Positions 16,677-24,771 of a stretch of DNA of 34,519 nt are shown piece after piece (position 1 is the first letter of the stretch; the number at the start of each line of letters is the position of its first letter). Under the pieces are notes generated by a model that saw only the letters and a program-made list of their open reading frames with translations, ran no database searches and had not been told where the DNA came from. The translations under genes and the position numbers were made by a program. Source of the stretch: Chloroflexota bacterium (GTDB lineage Bacteria > Chloroflexota > Limnocylindria > P2-11E); assembly GCA_005889075.1 (NCBI GenBank), contig VBDQ01000029.1:1-34519 (forward strand), written 5' to 3'.

Positions 16677-17438
16677 GTGGCGTATGACGGAACCAGATAC
16701 GCCGGATTTCAGATCCAGACCAACGCGCCGACGGTGCAGGCGGAGCTCGAGAAGGCGCTCGGCAGGATCTGCGGCGAACCGCTCCGGATCACCGGTGCCG
16801 GCCGCACCGACGCCGGAGTGCACGCGAGCGGACAGGTCGTCGACTTCCGCACGAAGAGTCCGCTGAACGCAGCGGACCTGGGGCGAGGGGTGAACGCCCT
16901 TCTCCCCGAGGACATCGCGGTCTCGGCGCTCGAGCCGGCGGAGGAGAGCTTCCACGCCCGGTTCTCGGCGACGGGACGGACATACGAATATCGGATCCGC
17001 AACGCGGGAGAGCGCGATCCGCTCGAGCGGCGGCGCGAACACTGGCTCGCACCGACGCTCGATCTTGCGGCGATGGCCGAGGCGAGCGAGGTGCTCGTCG
17101 GGCGGCACGATTTCTCGGCGTTCGCGGCGGGCCCGGGCGGAATCCGCACGATCCGAAAGGCGGCATGGTGCAGGGACGCTGCACTGCTGCGTTTCGAGAT
17201 CAGCGCGGACGCATTCCTCCGCGGCATGGTCCGCGCGATCGTGGGGACGCTGATCTGGGTCGGGCGCGGAAAGATCGACCGGGCGGCGTTCGCCGAGATC
17301 GTCGCGTCGCGCGACCGCGCGCGCGCGGGTCCGAGCGCGCCGGCGAACGGGCTCTGCCTGATCGCCGTCGACTACGCGCTGGGGGGCGCTGCCCCCCAAA
17401 CCCCCGCACCAAGCGAATTGAACGAGGCGGATGAATAG
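16677..17438 (+). CDS. truA: tRNA pseudouridine(38-40) synthase
   Basis: TruA converts uridines 38-40 in the anticodon stem to pseudouridine. The product shows VAYDGTRYAGFQ, the catalytic GAGRTDAGVHASGQV with its Asp, a TGRTYEYRIRN segment, HDFSAF, and AFLRGMVRAIVGTL. The track start at 16470 lies in rplQ. GTG 16677 has a good GGAAGG sequence five bases upstream, giving 253 residues, a normal length, though the four to five residues that usually precede this motif are then lost. A GC palindrome shared with rpsQ encodes the segment LGGAAPQTP near the C-terminus. The order rplQ-truA-rplM-rpsI is common in Gram-positive-type genomes. Confidence 0.94.
   Translation: MAYDGTRYAGFQIQTNAPTVQAELEKALGRICGEPLRITGAGRTDAGVHASGQVVDFRTKSPLNAADLGRGVNALLPEDIAVSALEPAEESFHARFSATGRTYEYRIRNAGERDPLERRREHWLAPTLDLAAMAEASEVLVGRHDFSAFAAGPGGIRTIRKAAWCRDAALLRFEISADAFLRGMVRAIVGTLIWVGRGKIDRAAFAEIVASRDRARAGPSAPANGLCLIAVDYALGGAAPQTPAPSELNEADE
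17380..17405 (+). repeat. GC palindrome, copy 2 (3' end of truA)
   Basis: TGGGGGGC and GCCCCCCA form an 8-bp stem with a GCT loop, followed by AACCCCC. It is identical over 20 bases to copy 1 in rpsQ (6298-6324), again followed after one variable base by CCCCC, and is read in the same frame (LGGAAPQTP). Two same-frame copies near C-termini suggest a dispersed element that has extended or replaced gene ends. Confidence 0.85.
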
Positions 17439-17444
17439 GAGCAG

Positions 17445-17885
17445 ATGAAGACCTACACGACGAAGGCGACGGATATCACGCGCAGCTGGCAGGTCGTCGA
17501 CGCCGATGGCGCGACGCTTGGCCGGCTGGCGACAGAAGTTGCCGCACTCCTGCGCGGGAAGCACAAGGCCACGTTCTCGCCGCATCTCGACACCGGCGAT
17601 CCGGTGATCGTCGTGAACGCGGCGAAGGTGCGCGTGACCGGCAACAAATTACAGGCGAAGCGCTACGTTCGTCACTCCGGGTACCCGGGCGGGCTGCGAT
17701 CGGAGACGCTCGAGGCGTTGCTGTCGCGGCGACCCGAGGAAGTCGTCCGCCGCGCGGTGCGCGGGATGCTTCCGCAAAACCGCCTCGGGGAGCAGATGGC
17801 GCGAAAGCTCCACGTGTATGCCGGCGGCGACCATCCACACGCCGCGCAAAAGCCGCAACCGCGCAAGAGGGAGTCCGCCACATGA
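17445..17885 (+). CDS. rplM: 50S ribosomal protein L13
   Basis: L13 is an early 50S assembly protein. The 146-residue product has [38 protein letters not shown] and [18 protein letters not shown]-type segments, plus [20 protein letters not shown] near the end and HPHAAQKPQ. It starts six bases after truA with GGAGC just before, and its stop overlaps the rpsI start (ATGA). The length is typical. Confidence 0.98.
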
Positions 17886-18277
17886 AGGCAGCGCCGTACT
17901 TCCAGGGCACCGGTCGGCGTAAGACGTCTATCGCGCGGGTCCGGCTCGTTCCCGGCGAGGGCGCGGTCGTCGTGAACGGCAAGCCGCTCGATGACTACTT
18001 CGCACGGGATGGCGCCACCGAGCAAGCCCTCCTCCCGTTCTCGGTCACCAATACGGCGCGTCGATTCAACGCGATGATCAAGGTCACCGGCGGCGGTGTG
18101 ACGGGTCAGATCGGAGCCATCGCGCACGGGATCTCACGTGCGCTCCTTCAGGTCGACCGGGAGCACCTGCAAGCGCTCCGGCGCGCCGGGCTCCTCACAC
18201 GCGACCCGCGGGCGAAGGAGCGGAAGAAACCTGGTCTCAAACGCGCTCGGAAGGCGCCGCAGTTCACCAAACGCTAG
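17882..18277 (+). CDS. rpsI: 30S ribosomal protein S9
   Basis: S9 is a 30S head protein whose C-terminal tail touches P-site tRNA. The 131-residue product has [20 protein letters not shown], the middle segment [20 protein letters not shown], and the invariant tail RKAPQFTKR with terminal Lys-Arg. It is coupled to rplM, the universal pairing. It is the last ribosomal gene of the block; 33 bases separate it from a TPR protein, with no clear terminator. Confidence 0.98.
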
Positions 18278-18310
18278 CCCTGGGACACGCCGCGAGCGCA
18301 CACTACGGCC

Positions 18311-19492
18311 GTGTCACCGGGTACTAACTACAACTACCAGGTCGCGCTCAACGAGGGCCTCCAGTACTTGAAACAAGGCCGCTTGCGTCAGGCGGAGCAG
18401 AGCTTCAAGTATCTGGTCGATAAGTTCCCCGGAGCCGAGGGCGGTTACCGCGGGCTCGCAAAAGTGCACTTCGAGCAGGAGGACCGCGCGAGCGCGCTGC
18501 GCGTTCTGCGCGACGGCGCGGCAGCCCTCACAAAGTCAGGCGAGCGCCCGCAGGCCATCGGTCTCCTGCGCGAAGCCATCACGCTCGAGCCGCGCGATCT
18601 GGCGACGCACCGCCGGCTCGCCGCCGCGCTCGCGCTCGCCGGCGACACCGATGCCGCGATCGGCGAGTACGCCCGGTTCATCCGCGACCTGCGCGATGCC
18701 GGCAATGCCGAACGGGCGTCGCTCGAGACCGCCTACGCTCTCGGACAGCTCAGGCACATTCCTGGGTCGGCGATGCTGAAAGAGATCGCGAACGGCGAGG
18801 CACCGCCGCCGACTGAAACCACCGAGGAGAGCGAGCCCGAGCCGCCTGCACGCGCGACCGAGACGACCACGCTCCGTCCACAATCTCTGGCAGCCGATCC
18901 GTGGGAGGCCGCGGCGAAGCCGCCGGCGTACGGCGCCGTCGATCCGTGGGCACCACGATCCACCACCTCGGAGCCGACGACCGCAACGACGCGTCCCGCC
19001 GCCGCGCCGACCGCTCCCGCGCCAAAGCCACCGCCGGCCCCGTCCGCGCCGACAACCGTGTGGGCCGAGTCCCCCGCCGAACGGGCCGCGAAAACGCCGG
19101 CCGACGTGTGGTCGACGCCGAGCGCGGCCGCGCCTGCCCCCCAGACGCCGGCCGAGACCACCGCGGCGGCGCAAGCCGATGACGTCGAAGTCGAGGCCGC
19201 CGCCGCCCGCTATCTCGCGACGCGAGATCCGCGTGCCGCGGAGCTCGCCCTCGAGGCCGCGCGACGCTATTTGAAGGACGGTCGCACCGACGCGGCGTCG
19301 GACCTGCTCCTCCAGCTCATCGCCGCCGGTGTCGCGGATCACGATGCGCAGCGGCTGCTCGTCGAGGTCGCGCGTACGCTCGGAAAGCGCGAAGTCGCCC
19401 GTGCGAAGTGCCAGCTCCTCGTGCAGGCCCTGCTGCTCGACGGGCGCAACGACCTTGCCGCGGAGGTCGAGGCGCTGGCGCGGGCCGATTAA
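18311..19492 (+). CDS. TPR-repeat protein with a long Pro/Ala/Thr linker, function unknown
   Basis: I do not recognise a named family. The 393-residue product has no signal peptide or membrane helix. Residues ~5-135 read as tetratricopeptide-like helices (YNYQVALNEGLQYLKQGRLR; AEQSFKYLVDKFPGAEGGYR; AIGLLREAITLEPRDLATHR). Residues ~155-290 are a Pro/Ala/Thr/Glu linker with repeated short DPW/VW elements (DPWEAA, DPWAPR, DVWSTP). Residues ~290-393 return to helical repeats (ARRYLKDGRTDAASDLLLQL). It is probably a cytosolic scaffold. It abuts cdaA with no gap (TAA then GTG), so it is likely co-translated with the c-di-AMP cyclase. Start GTG 18311 is the track start and opens the first TPR; an upstream ribosome-binding site is weak. 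Confidence 0.75.
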   Translation: MSPGTNYNYQVALNEGLQYLKQGRLRQAEQSFKYLVDKFPGAEGGYRGLAKVHFEQEDRASALRVLRDGAAALTKSGERPQAIGLLREAITLEPRDLATHRRLAAALALAGDTDAAIGEYARFIRDLRDAGNAERASLETAYALGQLRHIPGSAMLKEIANGEAPPPTETTEESEPEPPARATETTTLRPQSLAADPWEAAAKPPAYGAVDPWAPRSTTSEPTTATTRPAAAPTAPAPKPPPAPSAPTTVWAESPAERAAKTPADVWSTPSAAAPAPQTPAETTAAAQADDVEVEAAAARYLATRDPRAAELALEAARRYLKDGRTDAASDLLLQLIAAGVADHDAQRLLVEVARTLGKREVARAKCQLLVQALLLDGRNDLAAEVEALARAD

Positions 19493-20326
19493 GTGGACCG
19501 CATCGTCCAGCAGCTCAACGACCTCCTGCACGGGCAGATCTTCAAATGGAACAACGCACTCGACGTCCTGATCGTGGCGATCTTCATCTACTACGTCCTC
19601 GTCCTGATCCGCGGTACCCGGGCGGTCCAGCTGCTCATCGGTGTCCTGGTCCTCGTCCTCATCTACTGGATCGCGACCTATCTCCAGCTGACCCTCACGG
19701 TGCTGCTCCTGCAAGGCCTGTTTGCCGTGGCCGTCGTCGCGCTGGTCGTCGTGTTCCAGCCGGAGCTGCGGCGCGCCCTGGGCCAGCTTGGACAGCTCGG
19801 CCCCCTCAACCGCCTGCTCGCGCCGGGCACCGAGGAGGAGGTGGAGGGCATCGTCGACGAGCTCGTCCGAGCCGCTCTTCTCATCAGTGAGGCGAAGCAC
19901 GGCGCGCTGATCGTGCTCGAGCGCGCGACGGGGCTTCAGGACTACAGCGAGACCGGCGTTCCGGTGAACGGCAAGCTGACCGCGGAGCTCCTCGCCTCGA
20001 TCTTCATGACGCGCTCGCCCCTGCACGACGGAGCGGTGATTGTGAGGGGCAATGAGATCATCGCGGCGGCCTGCCTCCTCCCGCTCGAGGAGACGGCGCA
20101 AGGTGCGGCAGCGCACCGCTACGGGATGCGCCACCGAGCGGCCCTGTCGATCAGCGCGCAGACCGACGCCATCGTCATCGTTGTCTCTGAGGAGACTCAG
20201 TCGATCTCGATCGCGTCGGGCGGCCGCATGATCGGCGCCCTGGACGAGGAGCGGCTGCGCCGCGTGCTGTCGTCGCTGATCCGGAGCCGCATCCAGCCGC
20301 TCCCCTTCCGCAGCAAGGCTTCCTGA
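19493..20326 (+). CDS. cdaA: Membrane diadenylate cyclase CdaA
   Basis: CdaA makes cyclic di-AMP from two ATP at the membrane and so affects potassium/osmotic control and cell-wall homeostasis. The 277-residue product has three hydrophobic segments in residues ~20-85 (ALDVLIVAIFIYYVLVLI; LLIGVLVLVLIYWIATYL; VLLLQGLFAVAVVALVVV), then the DAC domain. The catalytic motif is SPLHDGAVIV (Asp179-Gly-Ala), and the second motif is RYGMRHRAAL (Arg213-His-Arg). It abuts the TPR gene and is followed one base later by cdaR and then glmM, the conserved CdaA-CdaR-GlmM module known from Firmicutes. Confidence 0.96.
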   Translation: MDRIVQQLNDLLHGQIFKWNNALDVLIVAIFIYYVLVLIRGTRAVQLLIGVLVLVLIYWIATYLQLTLTVLLLQGLFAVAVVALVVVFQPELRRALGQLGQLGPLNRLLAPGTEEEVEGIVDELVRAALLISEAKHGALIVLERATGLQDYSETGVPVNGKLTAELLASIFMTRSPLHDGAVIVRGNEIIAAACLLPLEETAQGAAAHRYGMRHRAALSISAQTDAIVIVVSEETQSISIASGGRMIGALDEERLRRVLSSLIRSRIQPLPFRSKAS

Positions 20327-20327
20327 C

Positions 20328-21596
20328 ATGCAGGGCGTGCCCGCGAGGCGTCAGATCATGCCCCGGGGGCGGATCGATCTCCGTCGCGCGTTCGTTTCGG
20401 ACCTGCCCCTCAAGCTCACCGCCGTGCTGGTCGCCATGATCTTCTGGGCCGTCTCGCTCCTGAATCAGGCGCCCGCGGAGGTGACGCAGCCCTTCGCGGG
20501 AAGGATCGCCGTCGAGCGACCGGACGTTCCGACGGGATACGTGCTCGAGGGCTCGCTTGGCGACGTCGGAGTGAGACTCCGCGGTCCGGAGGGCGCCGTC
20601 GGTGGAATCGTCGCGTCGGATCTCCACGCGACACTCGACATCGGGTCGGCCGACCTCCACCGCAGCGATCCGCAGGACGTCACGGTCAACGTCACCGTCG
20701 CGAACCCGAACGTCCACGTCGTGGACGTCTCGCCGTCGGCCGTGAGTGTGCGGATCGAGCCGATCACGACACGGCCCGTCGCCGTGCAAGTCCGTTTCGC
20801 GAACAATCCGCCCGTCGGCAATCAGCCCGGCGATGCGGCGCTCAATCCGAGCGAGGTCCGAGTGAGCGGCGCGACGAGCCAGGTCGCGCGGATCGCCGCC
20901 GTTTACGCGACCGTCCTGTTCGGCGACGCGGCGACCGATCTCGTACAAAGCGTGCAGCCGAGCGCGGTCGATGCCGCGGGAGTGCCGATCGACGGACTGA
21001 CGACGGATCCGGCTGTCGTCCAGGTGACCGTTCCGGTACTGCCGACCGCGACCACCCGCACGGTCCCGGTCGTCTGGAGCATCCGCGGCGCCGTGGCGGC
21101 CGGCTACCAGATCACTCGGATCACGGTCGACCCTCCCGCGGTGACCATTCGCGGCGAGCCCGACGCGATCTCGCCGATCGATCACATCGATACGGGAGCT
21201 GCCGACGTCAGCGGCCTCACCGGGGACAAGTCCTTCAACGTCGCCCTGCTGCTCCCGGCAGGGACCTCGCTCTTTCGCCAGACCGGCTCGACAGTGACGG
21301 TCTCGGTCGCGCCCTACGTGGGCACCCGGCCGTTCCCGCTCGTAGCCGTGACTGCAGTCAATCTCGGTAGCAACCTGCTGGCCGACACCGACCCGCAGAC
21401 CGTCGCGGTGGTGCTCGCTGGGCCGGTGGCGACGCTGCAGGGCCTGGCGCCGGGACAGGTCGTCGCGATCGTCGACGCGTCCGGCCGTGGAGCCAGCAGC
21501 GCACCAGCGGATGTCAGCGTTCGCGTTCCCGCGGGTGTCACGGTACAGACCGTGCAACCGACCCGGGTCACACTCACCATACGAACGAGAAGTTAG
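20328..21596 (+). CDS. cdaR: YbbR-domain protein, CdaA regulator CdaR
   Basis: CdaR proteins are membrane-anchored and modulate CdaA activity. The 422-residue product has a short basic N-terminus, one membrane helix at residues ~25-45 (PLKLTAVLVAMIFWAVSLL), and then an extracytoplasmic part built of repeated beta-rich YbbR units. Signs of repetition include VTVNVTVANPNVHVVDVSPS and ITRITVDPPAVTIRGEPDAI, with a recurrent V.P..V.V.G pattern. I count about four units. It follows cdaA by one base, and its stop overlaps glmM (TAGTG). The ATG at 20328 is preferred to the later ATG at 20358. Confidence 0.9.
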   Translation: MQGVPARRQIMPRGRIDLRRAFVSDLPLKLTAVLVAMIFWAVSLLNQAPAEVTQPFAGRIAVERPDVPTGYVLEGSLGDVGVRLRGPEGAVGGIVASDLHATLDIGSADLHRSDPQDVTVNVTVANPNVHVVDVSPSAVSVRIEPITTRPVAVQVRFANNPPVGNQPGDAALNPSEVRVSGATSQVARIAAVYATVLFGDAATDLVQSVQPSAVDAAGVPIDGLTTDPAVVQVTVPVLPTATTRTVPVVWSIRGAVAAGYQITRITVDPPAVTIRGEPDAISPIDHIDTGAADVSGLTGDKSFNVALLLPAGTSLFRQTGSTVTVSVAPYVGTRPFPLVAVTAVNLGSNLLADTDPQTVAVVLAGPVATLQGLAPGQVVAIVDASGRGASSAPADVSVRVPAGVTVQTVQPTRVTLTIRTRS

Positions 21597-22924
21597 TGGC
21601 CAGGCTGTTCGGTACCGATGGCGTTCGCGGTGTGGCGAATCTCGACCTCACGCCGGAGCTCGCGCTCCGGCTCGGTCGCGCGGCGGGGCACGTCCTCGGG
21701 GGCGGCGGCCACGCGGTCGTCGTCGGCCGGGACACTCGACGAAGCGGGCGGATGCTCGAAAGCGCGCTCGCCGCGGGTCTGTGCTCGGTCGGCATGGAGG
21801 TGCGGCTTGTCGGCCACATCCCGACCCCCGGCCTCGCGTACCTCGCCAAACGAGGTGAGTTCGTCGCGGGGGCGGTCATCAGCGCGTCGCATAACCCGGC
21901 GCCGGACAACGGCATCAAGTTCTTCGACCACCGCGCGCAGAAGCTCGCCGACGTAACGGAGGAAGAGATCGAGCGCCGGATGACCGATGAGGACATGCTT
22001 CCGCGTCCGACCGAGGGCGGGATCGGCCTGGTCGGCGATGCACGTGGCCTGGTGCGGGAGTACGAGGACTTCCTTCTCTCGATGGCCCCGAAGCTGGATG
22101 GCATGCGGATCGCTCTTGATTGCGCGAACGGCTCGACGTACCGCGTCGCGCCCGCCGTGTTCGCACATTCCGGCGCGGAGGTTCTCGCTTTTTTTGACGC
22201 ACCCGACGGCCAGAACATCAACGATGGCTGCGGAGCAACCGCGCCGGGGGCGCTTCAGCGGCTGGTGGTCGATCGAAAAGCCGACGTTGGCTTCGCATTC
22301 GACGGTGACGGCGACCGTGTGATCGTCGTCGACGAAAAGGGCCGAGCGCACAACGGCGACTTCGTTCTCGCGCTCGCGGCGCGGCACTTCGCGCGTCACG
22401 GCCAGCTCGAGCCGAAGATCGTGATCGGCACGGTCATGACCAACGGTGGGCTTGAGTCAATGCTCGCGCGCGAAGGCATCCGTCTCGAGCGGACCCAGGT
22501 CGGGGACCGCTATGTGTGGGAAGCCATGGAGCGCCTCGGGGCACAGTTCGGCGGAGAGTCGTCGGGTCACGTGATCTTTCGCGAGTACGCGACGACCGGC
22601 GACGGCATACTCACCGCGCTCGAGGTCCTCCACCTGATGAAGGCTGAGGGCCGGTCGGTCGCCGAGCTCGCCGACCAGATGCAGTTCTGGCCGCAGGTGA
22701 CCATGAACGTGAAGGCTGCGCGGCGCCGCGAGTGGGAAGCGAACGACGCGTTCGTGGCCGCCTATGAGGGCGCGAAGTCGACGCTCGGCTCGAGCGGCCG
22801 GCTCCTCGTGCGGCCGTCAGGGACCGAGCCTGTGCTGCGGATAACGGTCGAAGCGCAAAGCTCGACGATCGCGTCGAGCACCGCGCAGATGCTCGCTCGC
22901 GTCGCCGAGAAGGAGCTGGTCTAG
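21596..22924 (+). CDS. glmM: Phosphoglucosamine mutase GlmM
   Basis: GlmM converts glucosamine-6-phosphate to glucosamine-1-phosphate for UDP-GlcNAc. The 442-residue product starts VARLFGTDGVRGVANLDLTP, has the active-site serine loop ISASHNPAPDNGIKFF (Ser98), the magnesium loop FDGDGDRVIVVDEKG (around residue 236), the sugar-binding GGESSGHVIF, and the phosphate loop RPSGTEPVLRITVEA. It is the normal length and coupled to cdaR. In other bacteria GlmM binds and inhibits CdaA, which explains the gene order. A seven-T run lies at 22189-22195, but the frame is intact. Confidence 0.98.
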   Translation: MARLFGTDGVRGVANLDLTPELALRLGRAAGHVLGGGGHAVVVGRDTRRSGRMLESALAAGLCSVGMEVRLVGHIPTPGLAYLAKRGEFVAGAVISASHNPAPDNGIKFFDHRAQKLADVTEEEIERRMTDEDMLPRPTEGGIGLVGDARGLVREYEDFLLSMAPKLDGMRIALDCANGSTYRVAPAVFAHSGAEVLAFFDAPDGQNINDGCGATAPGALQRLVVDRKADVGFAFDGDGDRVIVVDEKGRAHNGDFVLALAARHFARHGQLEPKIVIGTVMTNGGLESMLAREGIRLERTQVGDRYVWEAMERLGAQFGGESSGHVIFREYATTGDGILTALEVLHLMKAEGRSVAELADQMQFWPQVTMNVKAARRREWEANDAFVAAYEGAKSTLGSSGRLLVRPSGTEPVLRITVEAQSSTIASSTAQMLARVAEKELV

Positions 22925-22926
22925 CC

Positions 22927-24771
22927 ATGTGCGGCATCGTCGGCTACGTCGGTCCGCGGGAGGCGCTCCCGCTCCTGATGAATGGGCTGCGCCGGCTCGA
23001 GTACCGCGGCTACGACTCGGCGGGCGTCGCGGTGCAGCAGAACGGCGCTCTCGAGGTCATGCGCGCGGAGGGCAAGCTCGACAACCTCGCCACGATCGTC
23101 GCGACCCACCCGACGCAAGGGCACACCGGAATCGGCCACACACGATGGGCTACCCATGGACGGCCCAACGAGCAGAACGCCCATCCGCATGTCGACTGCG
23201 GTGGAGTGACCGCCGTCATCCACAACGGGATCATCGAGAACTTCGAGTCACTGAAAGCGCCGCTCCTCGCGAGGGGACACCGTTTCACGAGCGAGACGGA
23301 CACCGAGGTCGCGGTCCACCTGCTCGAGGAGGAGCTGGAAAAGCGCCAGAGCCTCGAGGATGCGGCCCTCGCCGTCCTGCCACGGCTCGAGGGCGCCGCG
23401 GCGCTCGCGTTCATCTCCGTCCGCGACCCGGGGAAGATCGTGGCCGCGCGGATCTCCAACGCCGGCGGCGTCATCGTGGGGTATGGCAACGGCGAGAATT
23501 TCCTGGCGTCGGATGCGCCTGCTCTTCTCGAGCACACACGCCGCGTGAGCTTCCTCGACCACGGCGAGATCGCGGTCGTGACCCAGGACGCGGTGAGCTT
23601 CCGGAAGCTCACGGGCGAGCGGATCGACAAGAAGATCGAAGAGATCTCGTGGGATCCGATCGCCGCGGCGAAATCCGGATACAAGCACTTTCTCCTGAAG
23701 GAGATCCACGAGCAACCGCGCGCGATCTCGGACACGCTCCTCGGGCGCGTGGAGCGATCGACCGGCCGAGTCGTCTTCGATGACAACGTGAAGATGGACG
23801 ACGCCTTCGTTCGCGCCATCCCGCGGATCAGCTTTGTCGCCTGCGGGACCGCGTCTTACGCGGGCCTCGTCGGCAAGTACCTGATCGAGCGGCTGGCGCG
23901 CATCCCTTGCGATGTCGAGATCGCGAGCGAATACCGCTACCGCGAGCCCGTCGTCTCGCCGGGGCAGCTGGTCGTCTCGGTGACACAGTCAGGCGAGACC
24001 GTAGACACGCTCGCCGCGATGGAAGAGGCGAAGCGTCAGGGCGCGCGGCTGCTCACCTTCGTCAACGTCGTCGGCAGCCAGGCGAGCCGCGTGGCCGACG
24101 ACGTCGTGTATCTCCACGCCGGTCCCGAGATCAGCGTCGCGTCGACGAAAGCTTACGCCGCGATGCTGGTCGATCTGTACCTCTTCGCGATCTACCTCGC
24201 GCAGCGCCGCGGGGTCATCGATCCGGAACGTTCGCGCAAGCTGCTTGCGGAGGCATTCCATCTGCCTACCCTCGTCGACGCCGTCCTGCAGGAGGAGCCG
24301 AAGGTCAAGGCGCTCGCCTATCGCTACTACAGCGCGCACAACTTCCTCTTCCTCGGGCGCGGCGTGAACTACCCGACCGCGCTCGAGGGCGCGCTCAAGC
24401 TCAAGGAGCTCTCGTACATCCACGCCGAAGGCACGGCATCGGGAGAGATGAAGCACGGCACGAACGCGCTCATCAACGAGGAGCTGCCGGTCGTTGCGAT
24501 CGCGCTCCGCGACTCGGTCTACAAGAAGATCCGCTCCAACATGGAGGAAGTGCGCGCACGTGCTGGCGTGCTCATCGCTCTCGCGAACGACGATGACGAT
24601 GAGATCAACGGCAAAGCCGACGACATCATCCGCATTCCGCGAACAGAAGAGCTGCTTTCACCGGTTCTCGCGGTGGTCCCGCTGCAGCTACTCGCTTATC
24701 ACATCGCGGACCGCCGAGGGAACGATGTCGACCAACCGCGCAACTTGGCGAAGGCCGTGACTGTCGAGTGA
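22927..24771 (+). CDS. glmS: Glutamine-fructose-6-phosphate aminotransferase GlmS
   Basis: GlmS makes glucosamine-6-phosphate from fructose-6-phosphate and glutamine, the first step to UDP-GlcNAc. The 614-residue product begins MCGIVGYVG, with Cys2 as the glutaminase nucleophile, then LEYRGYDSAG and GHTRWATHGRP. The two SIS sugar domains follow, with FVACGTASYAG, SVTQSGETVDTLAAM and the C-terminal NVDQPRNLAKAVTVE-like end (DVDQPRNLAKAVTVE). It sits two bases after glmM. I see no glmS-ribozyme upstream: there is no room. Confidence 0.98.
   Translation: MCGIVGYVGPREALPLLMNGLRRLEYRGYDSAGVAVQQNGALEVMRAEGKLDNLATIVATHPTQGHTGIGHTRWATHGRPNEQNAHPHVDCGGVTAVIHNGIIENFESLKAPLLARGHRFTSETDTEVAVHLLEEELEKRQSLEDAALAVLPRLEGAAALAFISVRDPGKIVAARISNAGGVIVGYGNGENFLASDAPALLEHTRRVSFLDHGEIAVVTQDAVSFRKLTGERIDKKIEEISWDPIAAAKSGYKHFLLKEIHEQPRAISDTLLGRVERSTGRVVFDDNVKMDDAFVRAIPRISFVACGTASYAGLVGKYLIERLARIPCDVEIASEYRYREPVVSPGQLVVSVTQSGETVDTLAAMEEAKRQGARLLTFVNVVGSQASRVADDVVYLHAGPEISVASTKAYAAMLVDLYLFAIYLAQRRGVIDPERSRKLLAEAFHLPTLVDAVLQEEPKVKALAYRYYSAHNFLFLGRGVNYPTALEGALKLKELSYIHAEGTASGEMKHGTNALINEELPVVAIALRDSVYKKIRSNMEEVRARAGVLIALANDDDDEINGKADDIIRIPRTEELLSPVLAVVPLQLLAYHIADRRGNDVDQPRNLAKAVTVE

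Follow-up and report, generated by a model that had tools for sequence, protein, structure and literature searches.

A gene for a TPR protein directly adjoins the diadenylate cyclase gene cdaA in the window (the whole analyzed stretch of DNA, 34,519 nt), and the same adjacency occurs in 21 Chloroflexota genomes from 12 families. This is far beyond chance, because the TPR gene is found there in every same-order relative with upstream DNA and in distant families as well. In our best reading, the TPR protein belongs to a Chloroflexota family of cytosolic TPR adaptors that often serve membrane signaling proteins, including CdaA. We assign a probability of about 0.45 to the proposal that the protein is a two-bundle cytosolic adaptor that is made together with CdaA, docks on the cyclase and tunes or places it. 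An earlier note on this DNA would have abandoned the association if the adjacency were found in this genome only. Its conservation over the phylum goes beyond what that note expected.

The genes of interest lie on the plus strand in the order rplQ-truA-rplM-rpsI-TPR-cdaA-cdaR-glmM-glmS (Table 1). The TAA stop codon of the TPR gene, which ends at 19492, is followed at 19493 by the GTG start codon of cdaA with a gap of 0 nt, and both genes are read in the same frame. The cdaA product is an ordinary one that scores 221 bits against the cut-off of 189 for TIGR00159 CdaA (NCBIfam), contains the DAC domain (Pfam; E 4e-40) in addition to the N-terminal membrane domain CdaA_N, and displays the DGA and RHR motifs. 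With CdaA_N and DAC in one protein, followed by cdaR and then glmM, the locus has all the hallmarks of a CdaA-type cyclase operon. A simple scan from rpsI to cdaR (17400-21700) detected no promoter- or terminator-like site, which only shows that an obvious separator is absent between these genes.

Table 1. Positions of the genes, protein regions and motifs discussed in the text. Positions refer to the window except for the two receptor-paralogue pairs, which are numbered within their own loci.
Feature	Position	Strand	Description
rpsI (ribosomal protein uS9)	17882..18277	+	ORF; ends 33 nt before the TPR gene
TPR gene	18311..19492	+	393 aa; GTG start, TAA stop
N-terminal helical TPR bundle (predicted)	18317..18790	+	residues 3-160; 9 helices; pLDDT mostly 93-98
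Disordered Ala/Pro-rich linker (predicted)	18797..19147	+	residues ~163-279; pLDDT mostly <50; no secondary structure
DPW motif 1	18896..18904	+	residues 196-198
DPW motif 2	18941..18949	+	residues 211-213
VW motif	19058..19063	+	residues 250-251
VW motif	19106..19111	+	residues 266-267
C-terminal helical module (predicted)	19148..19486	+	residues 280-392; 6 helices; pLDDT ~80-90
cdaA, membrane diadenylate cyclase	19493..20326	+	277 aa; GTG start; TIGR00159, DAC, CdaA_N
cdaR (YbbR repeats)	20328..21596	+	PF07949, E 6.3e-27, 4 stretches; directly downstream of cdaA
glmM	21596..22924	+	TIGR01455, 527 bits, above cut-off; next after cdaR
glmS	22927..24771	+	SIS + GATase domains
Receptor + paralogue pair	L002 1489-4239, G000:C136	-	dCache-HAMP receptor, then TPR paralogue
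Receptor + paralogue pair	L112 1341-3856		dCache-HAMP receptor, then TPR paralogue

The Firmicutes operon consists of cdaA, cdaR and glmM, arranged as in the window. The window differs from this described three-gene set in its extra TPR gene directly 5' of cdaA (PMC8573169, PMC8316131). The earlier note placed a TPR partner outside the described set, and our search agrees with it: the open-access literature that we searched contains no description of a TPR partner of a diadenylate cyclase, including CdaA, and a paper on the DacA interactome of Streptococcus mutans makes no mention of TPR (PMC13289029).

What kind of protein is encoded next to the cyclase? An AlphaFold2 prediction with an 18-row alignment as input yields two helical bundles that are connected by a disordered linker, and the length of the linker varies strongly across relatives. 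The protein passes the curated cut-off of the Pfam TPR_19 model (37 bits against 25; E 3.9e-9; residues 20-72), and its predicted helical repeat fold retrieves TPR-repeat proteins as the top matches in a fold search. Neither a signal peptide nor a membrane segment is evident when the sequence is inspected by eye. MamA, PilF/PilW and YrrB have the TPR fold in common with the window protein but are distinguished from it by its two bundles and long disordered linker, and the scores for MamA (27 bits against a cut-off of 200) and PilW (28 against 154) are far below the NCBIfam thresholds. The C-terminal module shows a weak likeness to the C-terminal TPR domain of FimV (E 0.044; 4mal, E 0.19). However, the protein reaches only 13.8 bits against the FimV/HubP cut-off of 30.65, and no LysM or membrane segment is seen in it.

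In the same family and order, the TPR gene is located directly 5' of cdaA in every relative whose sequence covers the upstream DNA. In the same-order relatives, it resides between rpsI (where the sequence reaches it) and cdaA, and tblastn recovers the order rplQ-truA-rplM-rpsI-TPR-cdaA. Nearly all of these family and order relatives have a gap of -8 to +4 nt between the TPR gene and cdaA, with L021 as the exception. The TPR gene of L021 (818-2032) matches in two frames, an apparent frameshift that is either true or an assembly error. These near-zero gaps suggest translational coupling and raise an alternative in which the TPR gene merely sets the CdaA level through such coupling, while its protein has another job. 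The in-frame TAA-GTG junction of the window fits this alternative, but tight intergenic gaps are common in compact operons, and distant families keep the pair at gaps of ~0 to 130 nt. We consider a role in expression alone to be unlikely.

Beyond the order, another family of the same class (f3) encodes a TPR-linker-helical protein of 312-437 aa in the same slot 5' of cdaA. This protein is too diverged for BLAST, and its C-terminal module matches that of the window's relatives in a profile comparison (hhalign A2-A3, E 1.9e-9). A phylum survey with one cdaA locus per family identified larger TPR proteins of 716-1272 aa directly 5' of cdaA in families f13, f14, f21, f29, f31, f33 and f34, and these distant proteins contain an 85-residue module that the window protein also has at its C-terminus. 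Profile A1, which was built from the C-terminal modules of seven distant cdaA-upstream proteins and contains no sequence of the window's class, finds its best match in the 2.83-Mb genome at 19235-19471 (E 8.8e-8; next match, 3.8e-5). In hhalign comparisons, the distant modules match the f1 module with E 1.7e-7 (A1-A3) and the f3 module with E 1.6e-13, whereas a control with the N-terminal TPRs (A6-A3) is weak (E 0.0015). Judged from these profile comparisons, the C-terminal modules of the window protein and the distant cdaA-upstream proteins are homologous. The N-terminal TPR region is not specifically like that of the distant members, and in a search of its genome with profile A6, the window protein takes only the tenth place (E 0.009). 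Furthermore, a reverse search with a module profile from f1 only recovers just two of the seven distant proteins. Given that the N-terminal profile does not single out the window protein and that the reverse search is incomplete, orthology with the distant proteins is likely but not proven, and at the sequence level the link to the distant families hangs on the C-terminal module. The Bacillota cdaA loci L024-L028 contain no relative of the TPR protein.

Is conserved gene order sufficient to identify a partner of CdaA? The argF gene is about as conserved at the cdaA locus as the TPR gene and is found there in a similar number of families. It is positioned 5' of cdaA, either immediately or separated from it by the TPR gene, in most of the remaining families sampled (L048-L099), and in some genomes rpsI, argF and cdaA lie close together in that order. 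In f4 and in one f17 genome, cdaA comes straight after rpsI without a TPR gene. The whole stretch may be an ancient cluster that has lost argF or the TPR gene on repeated occasions. In a quick CdaA tree, the adjacency is scattered across both halves and requires ~10 changes. Because argF is equally conserved and the adjacency is scattered, conserved order alone is no proof of partnership.

The distribution of the family was followed with a combined module profile in 121 Chloroflexota genomes, with a family call at E < 1e-11. The TPR family is present in 52 of the 121 genomes, and 39 of these also have cdaA; another 52 genomes have cdaA without the TPR family. The presence of the TPR family and that of cdaA are uncorrelated (odds ratio 0.98; Fisher p=1). 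Of the 39 genomes with both, 21 have the two genes side by side, and in one further genome, G139, they are two or three genes apart. The combined profile holds rows from cdaA-adjacent copies and may favor such copies; it also detected the TPR-cdaA pairs of f2, f35 and one f23 genus, which had contributed no rows to it. Other members of the family are retained elsewhere than at cdaA: in f8 and f39 (L107, L108 and L117), the gene comes after polA rather than before cdaA, and in one f23 genus it likewise lies apart from cdaA. Thirteen genomes (f11, f19 and f36) have the TPR family and no detectable cdaA, and the DAC model found no DAC domain in any of the ~10 TPR-family genomes without cdaA that were checked. 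Since the family is kept where a diadenylate cyclase is absent, it must also work without c-di-AMP. The TPR-family proteins of L100, L101, L102, L103, L105, L113 and L116, from genomes without cdaA or DAC, have lengths of 966-1391 aa, and no neighbor gene common to these loci was noticed. A second, divergent DAC-domain match occurs in one genome (L123, G130:C1:3264832-3265170; 40 bits, E 1.2e-9).

These observations give weight to an alternative in which the window protein is a neighbor without being a partner, namely a general cytosolic TPR protein that was inherited within an old, slow-changing cluster of ribosomal genes, argF and cdaA-cdaR-glmM. The conserved proximity of argF to cdaA, whether or not the TPR gene intervenes, the f4 and f17 loci, the family members away from cdaA or in genomes without DAC, and the missing association in presence are all in line with it. 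On the other side, nearly all same-order genomes have no more than a few bases, if any, between the two genes, and 12 families keep the pair while other neighbors change between rpsI and argF. We regard this alternative as quite possible, though we do not favor it. The earlier note described the TPR protein as directly coupled to the cyclase. The conserved adjacency, from the same genus to distant families, upholds part of that description, but a direct or exclusive coupling is unsupported, given the equal conservation of argF, the uncorrelated presence and the retention of the family without DAC. The family has no fixed tie to c-di-AMP, and coupling to the cyclase is only a candidate function.

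The linker contains all four Trp residues of the TPR protein, in two DPW and two VW motifs, and accounts for 43 of the 44 Trp residues across 18 relatives. The [DN]PW pattern was observed 19 times in the 18 relatives versus a mean of 0.6 and a maximum of 5 in 5000 linker shuffles, an enrichment of ~30x in which the 18 rows, as kin to each other, do not count as 18 independent tests. The motifs are missing from L011, L016, L019 and L023, which have short linkers and in which the TPR gene still adjoins cdaA. Therefore, the motifs cannot be a general docking element, and the DPW/VW motif is a lineage feature rather than a requirement for the TPR-cdaA pair. The suggestion of the earlier note that the W-containing motifs are binding elements is strengthened by their non-random occurrence and weakened by their absence from these cdaA-adjacent members. 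The near confinement of Trp to the linker and the [DN]PW enrichment would also agree with a self-inhibited or oligomerizing scaffold, in which the DPW and VW motifs dock into the TPR grooves of the protein itself or onto a shared partner and the link to CdaA is secondary. We find such a scaffold very improbable, since the short-linker members without the motif still adjoin cdaA.

In the window's order, a paralogue that carries the same C-terminal module (L002 1489-2988, minus strand) starts 3 nt after the gene for a dCache-HAMP receptor, and this receptor stops after its HAMP domain without an output domain. Such receptor-paralogue pairs occur across families f1 and f2. A module-bearing frame is found just 3' of the receptor in 17 of 24 receptor loci, with some weak scores, and several of the remaining loci end at contig ends. 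Because the paralogue is paired with a membrane receptor that lacks an output domain, we infer that the proteins with this module act as cytosolic adaptors for membrane signaling proteins. Apparent fusions were evaluated separately. A TPR-receptor fusion in L137, L140 and L141 was rejected because the receptor is read in a different frame from the long open one. Long open frames that run into cdaA in high-GC genomes (for example, 660 aa in G026) were not accepted as TPR-CdaA fusions; the TPR protein of L056 has an ORF of its own, which ends ~95 nt before cdaA.

How would a TPR adaptor contribute to c-di-AMP synthesis? We propose that the window protein, as two helical bundles joined by a flexible linker, is most likely translated from the same transcript as CdaA and attaches to the membrane cyclase at its cytosolic face. 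One bundle would grip CdaA, and the other bundle, or possibly the Trp motifs of the linker, would grip a second protein. By this means, the TPR protein would tune or place CdaA, by analogy with GlmM in Firmicutes. Cyclase regulators are commonly operon neighbors, given that CdaA is regulated by its operon neighbors CdaR and GlmM in Firmicutes, and DisA by RadA (PMC8573169). Like the TPR protein, GlmM and RadA are cytosolic and encoded beside a cyclase gene. Unlike them, the TPR protein has a TPR fold without an enzyme or helicase domain, and its binding to CdaA is only a candidate property. This precedent, the retention of the pair in 12 families, the C-terminal modules that match in both sequence tests and the pairing of a paralogue with a membrane receptor argue for a CdaA partner. 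The equal conservation of argF, the lack of a presence correlation, the tenth rank in the N-terminal profile search and the 2/7 recovery in the reverse search argue against it. A broader version of this proposal, in which the protein is a phylum-wide, hitherto undescribed accessory subunit of CdaA that connects a second signaling input with the cyclase, and in which the family also serves dCache-HAMP receptors and has been partly freed from c-di-AMP work where the cyclase was lost, seems rather doubtful to us.

The finding is informative in either case. If the TPR protein is not a partner of CdaA, it provides a useful warning that the conserved gene order at the cdaA locus includes argF too. 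The described operon-encoded partners of CdaA are CdaR and GlmM, and the conserved TPR neighbor makes a specific candidate for a third one in Chloroflexota.
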